Source of the DNA: Branchiostoma floridae
Taxonomy: Eukaryota > Chordata > Leptocardii > Amphioxiformes > Branchiostomatidae
Reading direction: 5' to 3'
DNA length: 64,000 nucleotides
Assembly (NCBI RefSeq): GCF_000003815.2
Contig: NC_049983.1
Location: 26,649,278-26,713,277, forward strand
Shown: piece by piece, positions 55,190 through 58,983 of the stretch
How positions within the stretch are numbered: position 1 is the stretch's first letter
How the letters are laid out: every line of letters starts with the position of its first letter
Notes under the pieces: generated by a model
Database searches by the model: none
The model's input: only the letters and a program-made list of their open reading frames with translations
Told to the model about the DNA's origin: nothing
Program-made: the position numbers and the translations under genes

Positions 55190-56345
55190 ATATAAAGAAA
55201 GGACACGGAGAAACATGATTCGATTTCCCAGTGAAAGCTGATTGTATTATCTCTCCGATTTCCCTCCTTACAGGTTTGCGGAAACGTTCCCCAGCGATCT
55301 GGCAACGTTGCGACGTGGGCGGAAGGAAATCCGACAGGGACGGATTCTGATCCTGGGAAGAAGCATCGGCGGCTTCCCGAGGCCATCATTGTTCTCCGAT
55401 TGACTCATCAATAACGGAGACGATCTAAAGGAGTCTTTAAGGCGGCGTGGATGAGGGGTCGCTCCTTGGAAGTGTTTGTCGTGATGCCTGCAGGGATTTT
55501 TATTAACGGACTACAATCGTTCTGAAAGTGTTGGTGAGCCGGACTATCTGTTTTATACAGCAACCGGGCAGGTCGCTGACCTCAGCACATCGTGTGGGAG
55601 GGTTACTCACCTGTGTGGGTTTGTACGGACCGAGGAGGGTTGGTTACTCACCTGTATGGGTCTATACGGACTGAGAAGGGTTACTCACCGGTGTGGGTAA
55701 ACGGGAAGACTTAAATCAAACAAAAATTTGAGAGTTCTTTTGTATTGAGCCGAAAAAAAAGAAAAGTTCATCCGGAAATCGATAGGAAACGATTCAACAA
55801 TTAGAACAGTCTCTGTCCTGAGGAACTGTGTATGTCATGCAAATTTGGCCCTAAGATAATATTCTGGAATCTATAATTGAACTATCACATCGTGTATTCG
55901 CAAAGGGTGGGAGGAGCAAAGCTTACAAGTGATTGACTCTTCACAAGATATCACCAACTTTCCCTCAAATGATGACCTTGCTATGAGCTGTAACCGGTGA
56001 AACATCCTCCTGACCTCCCCACAGGCGGACTGACACATCCCTAATCAGGCCCGGAAATAGCGCGGCGTGATTACACTTCCCACCGGCAGCACACCTCACC
56101 AGGGCTACTCACCACTTCGGGTCTGACAGCTCATATCGCAGCCCGCCCCATCCATCGTGTAATCGGATTAAGTGCCTGACTCGACATTCCCGGAACATTC
56201 CCGGAGGTGGTGACTTTTAATAAAGACTTGTCAGGAATGATGCGGCGCTGTGGGTGATACATGCCGCCAGGGGCGCAGGCTTAGCTCGGGCTAGCACCAG
56301 CCAGAATTGGGAAACGACATTGCGGGTTACGCCTAAAAGCAATTA
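55190..56345. other. Upstream region of the receptor gene, mostly unique
   Basis: A ~45-bp repeat with GGGTTACTCACC(T/G)GT occurs three times at 55608-55705. The rest is moderately GC-rich, with no exon recognised. It could hold distal regulatory sequence for the receptor. Confidence 0.4.
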
Positions 56346-56589: not shown

Positions 56590-56882
56590 CTGTGTGTGTG
56601 TGTGTGAATGAGCGATCACGTGGCTTGCACGTGATGTGGTGACGTAGAAGGAGGGTTTACCCTCAGGAGGACACGGACAGATAAAACACGCCTACTCGGC
56701 TGGTAGGTCTAGTTCACGTGTCGGCGTTTCGGTGGGCTGAATGACTCATAACCACGCTGCCTTTGACAGAAGATTGTTCATGAAAAGCTTTCATGAAAAG
56801 ACGACTTTTAAGAACTTGACTTGAAGAGAAGACGAGTGTATAAGAACTTGACTTGACGCGAGGACTAGAGTGAGTGTGAATC
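56590..56882 (+). promoter_or_regulatory. Putative promoter and 5' UTR of the amine GPCR gene
   Basis: A (GT)8 tract is at 56592-56607. CACGTG occurs at 56617-56622, 56628-56633 and 56715-56720; the first two are 11 bp apart, about one helical turn. TGACGT is at 56640-56645. GATAAAA at 56680-56686 is a weak TATA-like sequence. The start codon context is GAATCATGG, with A at -3 and G at +4, which is favourable. The transcription start site is not determinable here. Confidence 0.45.
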
Positions 56883-57272
56883 ATGGCCTTCAACGTTACG
56901 TGCCAGCTGACGGCCGGCGCTAACAGCAGCTCCGCGCTCGAGCTGCTGCTCCCGTGCAACGCCACCGGGGGCCCGGACGCCTGGCCGGCGGGCGCCCTCG
57001 CACCCGACGGCCGCCTGTGGAGGTACACCACCACGGCGGTGTGGAAGGACACGGCGCTCGGCATCGTGCTGGCCTGCCTGTGCCTCGTCACCTGCGTCGG
57101 CAACGCCATGGTGCTGCACGCCGTGCGGACCAACAAGGAACTGCAGACGGTCAGCAACTTCTTCATCGTGAGCCTGGCGGTGTCTGACCTGGTGGTCGGG
57201 ACGGGCGTCATGTCGCTCAGCACCGCCTACATCCTGGCGGAGGAGTGGCGGTTCGGGCTGGCGCTCTGTCAG
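56883..57272 (+). CDS. Amine-type class A GPCR, first coding exon (partial; histamine H1-like)
   Basis: The exon encodes 130 residues of a plasma-membrane G-protein-coupled receptor for a biogenic amine. N-glycosylation sequons lie at N4, N14 and N26 in the extracellular N-terminus. TM1 spans about 56-81 with the conserved GN pair at 73-74. A short first loop, AVRTNKELQTVSN, follows. TM2 spans about 91-116 with LAVSDL at 98-103, including the conserved aspartate D102. The first extracellular loop has W122 and the disulfide cysteine C129. From memory of family sequences, TM1-loop-TM2 resembles histamine H1 receptors most, with muscarinic receptors next. The exon ends in CAG followed by GTACGTGA, a strong donor, phase 0. 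TM3-TM7 are missing, so the gene continues in exons not seen in this window. The codons are strongly GC-rich compared with the surroundings, as expected for a real exon. Confidence 0.9.
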
Positions 57273-57431
57273 GTACGTGACGCTGTTAGGTACGTGTTAG
57301 GTACGTATTAGGTACGTGTTAGGTACGTGTTAGGTACGCGTTAGGTACGTGTTAGGTGAGTGTTCGGTACGTGTTCGGTACGTATTTGGTACGTGTTAGG
57401 TACGTGTTAGGTACGTGCTAGGTACGTGTTG
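57273..57431 (+). repeat. 11-bp minisatellite of splice-donor-like units
   Basis: It starts at the exon's own donor. Units of GTACGTGTTAG repeat about 13 times with variants (GTACGTATTAG, GTACGCGTTAG, GTGAGTGTTCG). Most units contain AG followed by GTACGT, a good 5' splice site. TAG in each unit and the 11-bp period put stops in all frames. Confidence 0.93.
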
Positions 57432-57518
57432 GACCAGGAAGTGGGGACGGGCGTCATGTCACTTAGCACCGCCTACATCCTGGCCGAGGAGTGGCGATTC
57501 GGGCTGGCGCTCTGTCAG
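57432..57518 (+). pseudogene. Duplicate of GPCR exon 3' end, copy 2
   Basis: 87 bp equal to exon bases 57186-57272 (residues D102 to Q130). It encodes DQEVGTGVMSLS and on to ALCQ with no stop and a preserved CAG-GTACGTG donor. Two substitutions replace L103-V104 with QE. No polypyrimidine tract or good acceptor precedes it, so it is probably not a usable exon. Confidence 0.85.
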
Positions 57519-57657
57519 GTACGTGGTGCTGTGTTAGGTACGTGTAAGGTATGTGTTAGGTACGTGTTAGGTACGTGTTGGATACGCGTTAGGTACGTAT
57601 TTGGTACGTGTTAGGTACGTGTTAGGTACGTGTTAGGTATGTGCTAGGTACGTCTTG
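57519..57657 (+). repeat. Second block of the 11-bp donor-like minisatellite
   Basis: GTACGTGTTAG-type units resume after copy 2, including GTATGTGTTAG and GTACGTATTTG variants. It has the same layout as the first block. Confidence 0.9.
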
Positions 57658-57744
57658 GACCAGGAAGTGGGGACGGGCGTGATGTCGCTCAGCACCGTCT
57701 GCATCCTGGCGGAGGAGTGGCGATTCGGTCTGGTGCTCTGTTAG
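57658..57744 (+). pseudogene. Duplicate of GPCR exon 3' end, copy 3
   Basis: 87 bp starting with the same DQEVGTGV as copy 2, so it derives from that copy. A115-Y116 became VC, A127 became V, and the final Q codon CAG became TAG. The donor-like GTACGTGACGC is kept. Confidence 0.85.
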
Positions 57745-57817
57745 GTACGTGACGCTGTGTAAGGTACGTGTTAGGTACGCGGCAGGTACGTGTTAGGTAC
57801 GTGTTAGGTACGTGTCG
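57745..57817 (+). repeat. Third block of the donor-like minisatellite
   Basis: About six GTACGTGTTAG-type units lie between copies 3 and 4. Confidence 0.85.
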
Positions 57818-57904
57818 GACCTGGCGGTTGGAACGGGCGTGATGTCGCTGAGCACCGCCTACATCCTGGCCGAGGAGTGGCGATTCGGGCTGGCGCTGTG
57901 TCAC
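57818..57904 (+). pseudogene. Duplicate of GPCR exon 3' end, copy 4
   Basis: 87 bp encoding DLAVGTGVMSLS and on to ALCH. The Q codon changed to CAC and the following GTACGT to GTAGGT, so the original donor is lost. It retains DL like the true exon, so it did not come from copy 2. Confidence 0.85.
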
Positions 57905-58180
57905 GTAGGTGGCGCTCTGTTAGGCACTGTCAGCTGTCAGGTACGCGGGCTTGTGGGTCATGTCAGGTAGGTGGCGATTAGGCGGACGCTTCGGTTGGCC
58001 CTGTCTCGAACTGGCGCTCTGTTCGGTAGGTGAAGCTTCGGTGGACGCTTCGTCAGACGCTCTGTCAGGTACCTGACGCTTCGGGCAGGCGCTCTGTCGG
58101 GTACCGGGCACTTCGTCAGACGGTATGTCAGGTGGGGGTGGGACTTCGGCGGGCGCTACGTCGTGTAGAGAGCGTTCGTT
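57905..58180 (+). repeat. Degenerate short copies of exon tail plus donor
   Basis: GGCGCTCTGTCAGGTA-like segments (GACGCTCTGTCAGGTACC, GGCGCTCTGTCGGGTACC, GACGGTATGTCAGGTG) recur every ~30-50 bp. They are worn or truncated copies of the last ~20 exon bases and donor. Confidence 0.75.
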
Positions 58181-58983
58181 TATCAAAACCGTCTCTATTA
58201 CGACAAAGCTAAGTTTTCACGGGGAATCTCCAAAAAGTTTCAGACTGGCCATAAAAAAACAGTAAGTCAGCCGACTAACTAAGCTCCGTTATTTGTCGAA
58301 TAGGCGGTCATTTCATACGTGTACTTAGTACTAACTTCATCCTTTGGATATAATCTGGGAGTCATAAGTCTTTCAACTTTTCAACCCACCAAGTTTCAAA
58401 CTGGCACGTCTCTAGAAAACATTAAGCCAAGCGACCAACTAGAGCCGGCTATTCGTAAAACAGCGTGTATCATACGTGTAGTAATAACTTTTTCCTTCAT
58501 CCTATAATCTCAAAGTCACTTTCAACTTTCTTTTACCCACTTTCACATCATCAGACGGTCTTAAAAGAAAGTAAAGAACAGTTTCTTCCAGAGAGAGCCC
58601 CGACTGTGTTTCCCCATTAACTGCGGATTCCCGGTAACGACATTTTATACGCATGGAGGAGTTTTACAGACACGAACCGTTTTACTGTCGTCTCTGCAGC
58701 TGCTTATCGGAGACGGGAACGTCGCTTTGAAGAGTTTTCATTATCCACGGTTAGGCCACACTGAGTCAATCCTGTGGATGACATCCGCGCGAGCATTGAT
58801 TTTTTGCCTGTTCTCAAACAAGAACGCTTCTGAAAAAAGCTGGCCGGTGCGTATTTTGGAGAAAGCCTGGATGTTAAACAAAATCACATGAAAAAGAGGT
58901 TTTAAACATCGAATTACTGGATTGGTCTGTCTTCTATAAAAAAAACATTACATGAGAATTGTCTAACAAAGAATAAAAATTTT
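58181..58983. other. Probable intron sequence, no exon seen
   Basis: A pair of diverged blocks with AAGTTTCAGACTGGC or AAGTTTCAAACTGGC at about 58235 and 58390 is present. No DRY motif or TM3-like exon is recognised on plus. Confidence 0.4.

Follow-up and report, generated by a model that had tools for sequence, protein, structure and literature searches.

The end of the first coding exon of a Branchiostoma floridae receptor gene is repeated in tandem, together with its splice donor, inside the intron that follows it. Tandem repeats of this type, lying across exon-intron boundaries, are called "mirages", a term that comes from the lancelet Adh3 gene (PMC3087553 and PMC3902484; this and the other published data cited here are drawn from parts of the papers). 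In our view, the locus is very probably a mirage of the lancelet type, that is, a tandem array that arose at an exon-intron junction and is tolerated as intron sequence without a function of its own.

The receptor exon and the copies of its end

The exon belongs to a rhodopsin-family receptor and ends in phase 0 with CTC TGT CAG|GTACGT. Intron 1 is 22,257 bp long, and exon 2 begins at L006:5530, also in phase 0, with VWLSLDYVASTASIFNLFVLNLDRYW, a sequence by which, as predicted, it completes the H1-like receptor. When exons 1-3 are joined, the top match among the sequences of solved structures in the PDB is the histamine H1 receptor (E 2.1e-56). Other exons of the receptor were not detected by a motif scan of the window, i.e. 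the whole stretch of 64,000 nucleotides that was analysed, in which a Pfam scan of 20 of the 79 open reading frames of at least 80 aa gave no match at E 0.01, and Rfam gave none at gathering scores. Directly 5' of the receptor start codon there is a 31-bp imperfect duplication (84%, window 56809-56871). The features of the locus are the following:

56883..57272, + strand: first coding exon of the rhodopsin-family (histamine H1-like) receptor, N-terminus and TM1-TM2 (Pfam 7tm_1, E 1.4e-13)
57180..57286, + strand: exon tail and donor, copy 1, the authentic exon end (sole frame-0, stop-free site of 32 donor-like ones)
57273..57283, + strand: authentic donor GTACGT and first intron bases (the intron ends at L006:5529, beyond the window)
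57284..57425, + strand: 11-bp donor-like minisatellite, array 1, unit TGTTAGGTACG (repeat analysis)
57426..57532, + strand: exon tail and donor, copy 2, open and with an intact donor (alignment of copies)
57531..57651, + strand: 11-bp minisatellite, array 2 (106 of 121 bases equal to array 1 at a step of 226)
57652..57758, + strand: exon tail and donor, copy 3, last codon a stop, donor intact (alignment)
57757..57811, + strand: 11-bp minisatellite, array 3, about 5 units (repeat analysis)
57812..57918, + strand: exon tail, copy 4, donor damaged (alignment)
57934..58167, + strand: 32-bp repeat of exon end and donor, seven degenerate, partly incomplete units (repeat matches against shuffles)

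The final 93 coding bases of the exon and the donor CAG|GTACGT are found in three further copies, at 57426, 57652 and 57812, the successive steps being 246, 226 and 160 bp. The initial annotation had described an 87-bp tail, from D102 on, that recurs at 57432, 57658 and 57818. These coordinates are correct, and the homology begins 6 bp before D102 (57186), at V100 (57180). Over 107 aligned bases, the pairwise identity of the four copies ranges from 82 to 89% in the six pairs. What had been said about the state of the single copies also holds: copy 2 has an open translation, VLDQEVGTGVMSLSTAYILAEEWRFGLALCQ, and retains CAG|GTACGT; copy 3 terminates in TGT TAG, a stop at the last codon, and retains GTACGT; and copy 4 has lost its donor (CAC|GTAGGT).

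The unit of the 11-bp minisatellite matches the exon end TGTCAG|GTACG at 10 of 11 positions, with a single different base. This minisatellite had been reported after each copy; it does follow copies 1-3, whereas copy 4 is followed instead by a worn 32-bp repeat, whose unit is composed of the last 21 bp of the exon and 11 bp of the intron. The worn fragments noticed downstream of copy 4 correspond to this repeat: seven matches to the 32-bp unit, several of them partial, score at least 20 in 57919-58200 (those of 57934-58167), while 200 dinucleotide shuffles of the same segment give 0.71 matches on average and never more than 3.

Both elements were matched only at this locus. When two mismatches were allowed, a 28-base probe from the minisatellite was matched genome-wide at 15 places, all 15 at this locus, with none on the other strand and none for the reversed control; three exact 11-bp units, in the one register tried, were found at no place of the genome, this locus included. 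The search for the exon tail in the assembly of 513,431,437 bases gave four places, none outside the locus, and no second copy of the locus was found among the 431 contigs; in these DNA searches the best candidates alone were scored and very common words were skipped. Because minisatellite and exon tail were matched at this locus alone, we take it that the 11-bp array was made here, from this donor. The original proposal of a minisatellite that grew out of an exon-intron boundary and carried coding sequence with it is therefore supported, both by the 10/11 match to the donor and by the single locus. Further support comes from the start of each copy, which is GTGT or GTCT, a motif common to the exon, where it lies in GCGGTGTCTGACC, and to the minisatellite, where it lies in ACGTGTTAGG. 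From these sequences we infer that the short homology seeded the larger duplications.

With respect to splicing, 32 donor-like sites scoring at least 2 bits are present in 57170-58199, the first of them being the real donor, 57273 (the cut-off was 2 bits, and the matrix and the U1 5' end are unsourced). Two of the other 31 shift the frame and 29 lie beyond an in-frame stop; only 57273 keeps the frame open. The site TAG|GTGAGT at 57356, in the minisatellite, reaches 6.9 bits and a U1 pairing of -11.4, versus 5.3 bits and -8.7 for the real donor, all with this unsourced matrix. From frame and homology we infer that the first donor is used; a point against it is that the higher-scoring 57356 would have to be ignored in splicing.

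Order of duplication and possible coding constraint among the copies

From one block to the next, the arrays are identical at 106 of 121 bases and the tails at 93 of 105. Since tail and array are about equally diverged between blocks, they were probably copied as one block. The relationships among the four copies are less simple. Six sites at which the copies divide two against two, distributed along about 100 bases, back all three groupings: copies 2 and 3 are grouped at 57184, 57190 and 57194, copies 1+2 against 3+4 at 57209, and copies 1+3 against 2+4 at 57239 and 57280. Because these groupings are in conflict, the sites suggest that the copies have exchanged or converted sequence with one another, or that the same changes have recurred. 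For this reason, the idea that copies 2 and 3 arose by stepwise duplication stands only in part: the DQEV change is indeed common to both, but a simple stepwise tree accounts for the mosaic sites only if exchange, conversion or repeated change is added.

In the last 25 codons, the private changes, given as synonymous:replacement, are 1:0 in copy 1, 2:0 in copy 2, 1:4 in copy 3, and 3:1 in copy 4. Thus, 5 of the 6 private changes of copies 2 and 4 are synonymous (P 0.007 against a neutral 27%), and so are 6 of 11 when copies 2-4 are pooled (P 0.05). The comparison of copies 2 and 4 (5:1) with copy 3 (1:4) gives a Fisher P of 0.08, for a split that was chosen after looking and involves small numbers. 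The mostly synonymous private changes of copies 2 and 4 are not what would be expected if dead copies had simply drifted. They are a hint, although not a proof, that these two copies derive from, or were once part of, the coding exon end.

The same data bear on a rather unlikely explanation, in which unequal exchange would swap copies through the functional position at the exon end and most of the copies would once have been under coding selection. All three groupings of the mosaic sites and the contrast in private changes could be explained in this way, and differences in haplotype length, somatic instability and homogenisation between units are on record for mirages (PMC3087553). However, the numbers are small and were picked after looking, recurrent third-position change could mimic the mosaics, and a similar pattern would result if the functional exon had been copied at different dates.

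Copy 2 could also be regarded as a real cassette exon of 81 nt (57438-57518, EVGTGVMSLSTAYILAEEWRFGLALCQ) that inserts 27 residues into the receptor, but this is very improbable. The CTG to CAG change in the DQEV block does create a candidate acceptor, CCAG|GAAGTG, the exon would be open, in phase 0-0 and with an intact donor, and 6 of the 10 differences between copies 1 and 2 are concentrated in the first 18 of the 93 bases (P 0.003 for random placement). However, the AG is preceded by no pyrimidine tract (44% pyrimidine, 16 nt upstream, the mean being 50% ahead of 1800 [CT]AG sites in the window), the insert would give the receptor a second TM2 end and first loop, and copy 3 possesses the same would-be acceptor yet terminates in a stop.

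Splice-site arrays at other junctions and in the genome

The acceptor end of intron 1 is amplified too. The array that leads into the start of exon 2 (L006:4859-5549) contains 15 modules, including the real one, which are spaced 43 bp apart except for one step of 69 bp, and it opens with an additional degenerate unit without the CAG. In each module, a pyrimidine-rich stretch is combined with CAG and the 18 bases that open exon 2 (with one change in two modules). The motif CTAAC lies upstream in 14 of the 15 modules, the remaining one having TTTAAC, at a place where a branch point could plausibly be expected. Of the 14 spare acceptors, 13 reach a TAA at the seventh codon, after VWLSLD in 11 cases and VCLSLD in 2; the 14th carries extra exon-2 bases that are joined at a unit-like TAACC stretch and, as judged by eye, also meets a TAA. 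Because of this join, the acceptor array is a mirror image of the donor end, a short homology having again brought coding sequence into the repeat. Among the sites tested, the frame is kept by the first donor and the last acceptor alone.

Other junctions of the gene are also affected. Donor 2 shows two copies of exon end and donor, 130 bp apart (L006:5790-5948), and donor 3 shows three, 149 bp apart (L006:6318-6765). In total, near copies are present at 4 of the 12 predicted junctions of the gene and at none of the remaining 8, in a set where the junctions past exon 3 were predicted by eye and the last donor was guessed and is one base out of register. All copies detected sit intronward of the real junction. 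Of 3000 positions drawn at random from this repeat-rich region, 529 likewise have a near copy no more than 700 bp away, and at that background 4 or more of 12 junctions would be expected with P about 0.15 (calculated by hand). A targeted mechanism at junctions is therefore not claimed, since 4 of 12 is not clearly above the local repeat density. Coding exon 4 contains an in-frame imperfect repeat (L006:7058-7167) of LPKFPDDRER-like units, in which a 29-nt match occurs four times at steps of 30, 21 and 30; its expected location is the third intracellular loop.

A genome-wide search for triplets of AGGTRAGT donors with a spacing of 8-38 bases gave 492 places (309 + 183), versus 116 (51 + 65) for the reversed pattern; the places overlap within arrays, and those listed (C1, C2 and part of C3) fall by eye into about 21 arrays, simple repeats included, a clustering confined to the listed places of the forward pattern. 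Wide-spaced donors give 2354 places (1114 + 1240) versus 120 (62 + 58), and tandem acceptor-like TTACAGGT/TTNCAGGT give 722 (345 + 377) versus 70 (36 + 34); because of dispersed repeat families and overlapping places, these two counts are not to be taken at face value. For triple tandem consensus donors, the places outnumber those of the reversed patterns by a factor of 4-20, an excess that is inflated by overlaps and by a dispersed repeat.

Two of the first six AGGTRAGT arrays listed, taken in order, begin immediately at the end of a coding exon that Pfam identifies. In L035 the exon belongs to TALPID3 (E 7.1e-8) and in L028 to a dynein (AAA_7, E 4.5e-7), and in both it passes without a break into tandem consensus donors. 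An open frame of 62 aa without a Pfam match precedes the array of L041, the 76-aa frame at L025 is mostly repeat, and no convincing exon was found beside the arrays of L039 (27 aa) and L047 (no frame of at least 25 aa).

A dispersed 51-bp tandem repeat occurs on C1, for instance at 9479867-9481040, 20224900-20226504 and 29239707-29241319. Its units carry the consensus donor AGGTRAGTAAG, in both orientations at two of the three places, and it is possibly part of a mobile element. The 64-kb window itself contains about 22 minisatellite array regions. The densest cluster of donors of at least 5 bits among them is a 41-bp tandem repeat on the - strand (55598-55698, about 2.6 copies), with CCG|GTGAGT once and CAG|GTGAGT twice. 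It is a possible second mirage, next to which no exon was recognised.

That the copies are an assembly artefact, with haplotypes wrongly joined or repeats misassembled, is scarcely credible: the mirage locus BflGb6 did appear wrongly assembled in the draft genome (PMC3087553) and our genome search, made in the window's own assembly, is not independent of it, but the copies differ by 11-18% and are separated by arrays that have diverged as well, the same form is seen at other junctions of the gene and in other genes, and the repeats of PGBD5 were confirmed by resequencing data (PMC3902484).

Lancelet mirages and the origin of the arrays

After Adh3, mirages were described in the lancelet globin genes BflGb6 and BflGb9, in troponin C and in PGBD5, with units of 10-72 bp in Adh3, 150-160 bp in the globins, and 60 and 108 bp in PGBD5 (PMC3087553, PMC3902484). 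In the cited parts of these papers, mirage units span the exon-intron boundary, many of them carry AG/GT, and the real gene end lies at one edge. The receptor locus shows the same anatomy: the unit spans the real boundary, and AG/GT is present in many units, though not in all (32 donor-like sites, that of copy 4 having been lost). As judged from its sequence, the locus therefore joins a kind already known in lancelets. The 11-, 32- and 43-bp units are within the Adh3 range, and the steps of 149 and 160 bp are close to those of the globins. However, the steps of 226 and 246 bp exceed the mirage units cited, levels of 11, 32 and 160-246 bp are nested here at one donor, both ends of a single 22-kb intron are amplified, and the gene has repeats at 4 of its 12 predicted junctions. 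No mirages at both ends of one intron, and no genome-wide count, were found in a literature search that covered mainly open-access papers.

The authors of the globin study consider that their data suggest regular splicing, and put forward the idea that new introns may come from mirages (PMC3087553). In the Rogers model, as cited there, introns are gained via tandem duplication of exon sequence containing AG|GT, and the potato RdRp is a case of intron gain by such a duplication (PMC4974935). As in those cases, a duplication across the intron-exon boundary supplies splice signals in the receptor gene. Unlike in those cases, no new intron is seen, and the copies appear to be confined to an existing one.

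The lancelet-type mirage was probably built as follows. Short duplications across the junction, by slippage or template switching, would have produced the units of 32 bp and of 11 bp, of which those of 32 bp, being worn, look older. Later, the GTGT common to the minisatellite and to exon codons 100-101 would have allowed duplications with steps of 160-246 bp, which would have carried along 93 bp of coding sequence, and exchange or conversion between copies would then have mixed them. Because the copies sit downstream of the real exon end, the spliceosome could still pair donor 57273 with the last acceptor, which would leave the protein unchanged; the array would therefore be tolerated as intron sequence with no function of its own. 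The repeats seen at the acceptor of intron 1 and at donors 2 and 3 probably arose by the same process.

A duplication inside an exon would often break the protein and be lost. One that straddles a junction would leave exon and splice site intact, and its additional copy would end up in the intron and do no harm while splicing uses the exon-adjacent site. Since straddling duplications spare both exon and splice site, arrays at junctions would be expected as survivors without any targeting. Such a mechanism fits the frame results and the intron-side location of the copies, and the junction arrays probably have no selective effect and are simply a by-product of minisatellites arising at junctions.

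A bolder reading, which we consider distinctly unlikely, is that junctions in this genome are routinely amplified into complete splice modules, comprising donors but also branch point, pyrimidine stretch, AG and exon start, and that exchange keeps the spares interchangeable. The exon edge would then be multicopy and self-repairing, and a standing source of new introns and cassette exons. Stepwise (recursive) splicing might even make use of the AG|GT acceptor modules with which the 22-kb intron ends.

The origin of new introns and exons is an old question, for which duplication spanning AG|GT is one of the leading models. In this gene, the raw material is present at several junctions at once: intron 1 has 3 spare exon tails and 14 spare acceptors, and only the outermost donor/acceptor pair keeps the frame. 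The locus thus offers a natural test of spliceosomal choice of the exon-adjacent site among near-identical ones, and of how frequently spare copies are recruited.
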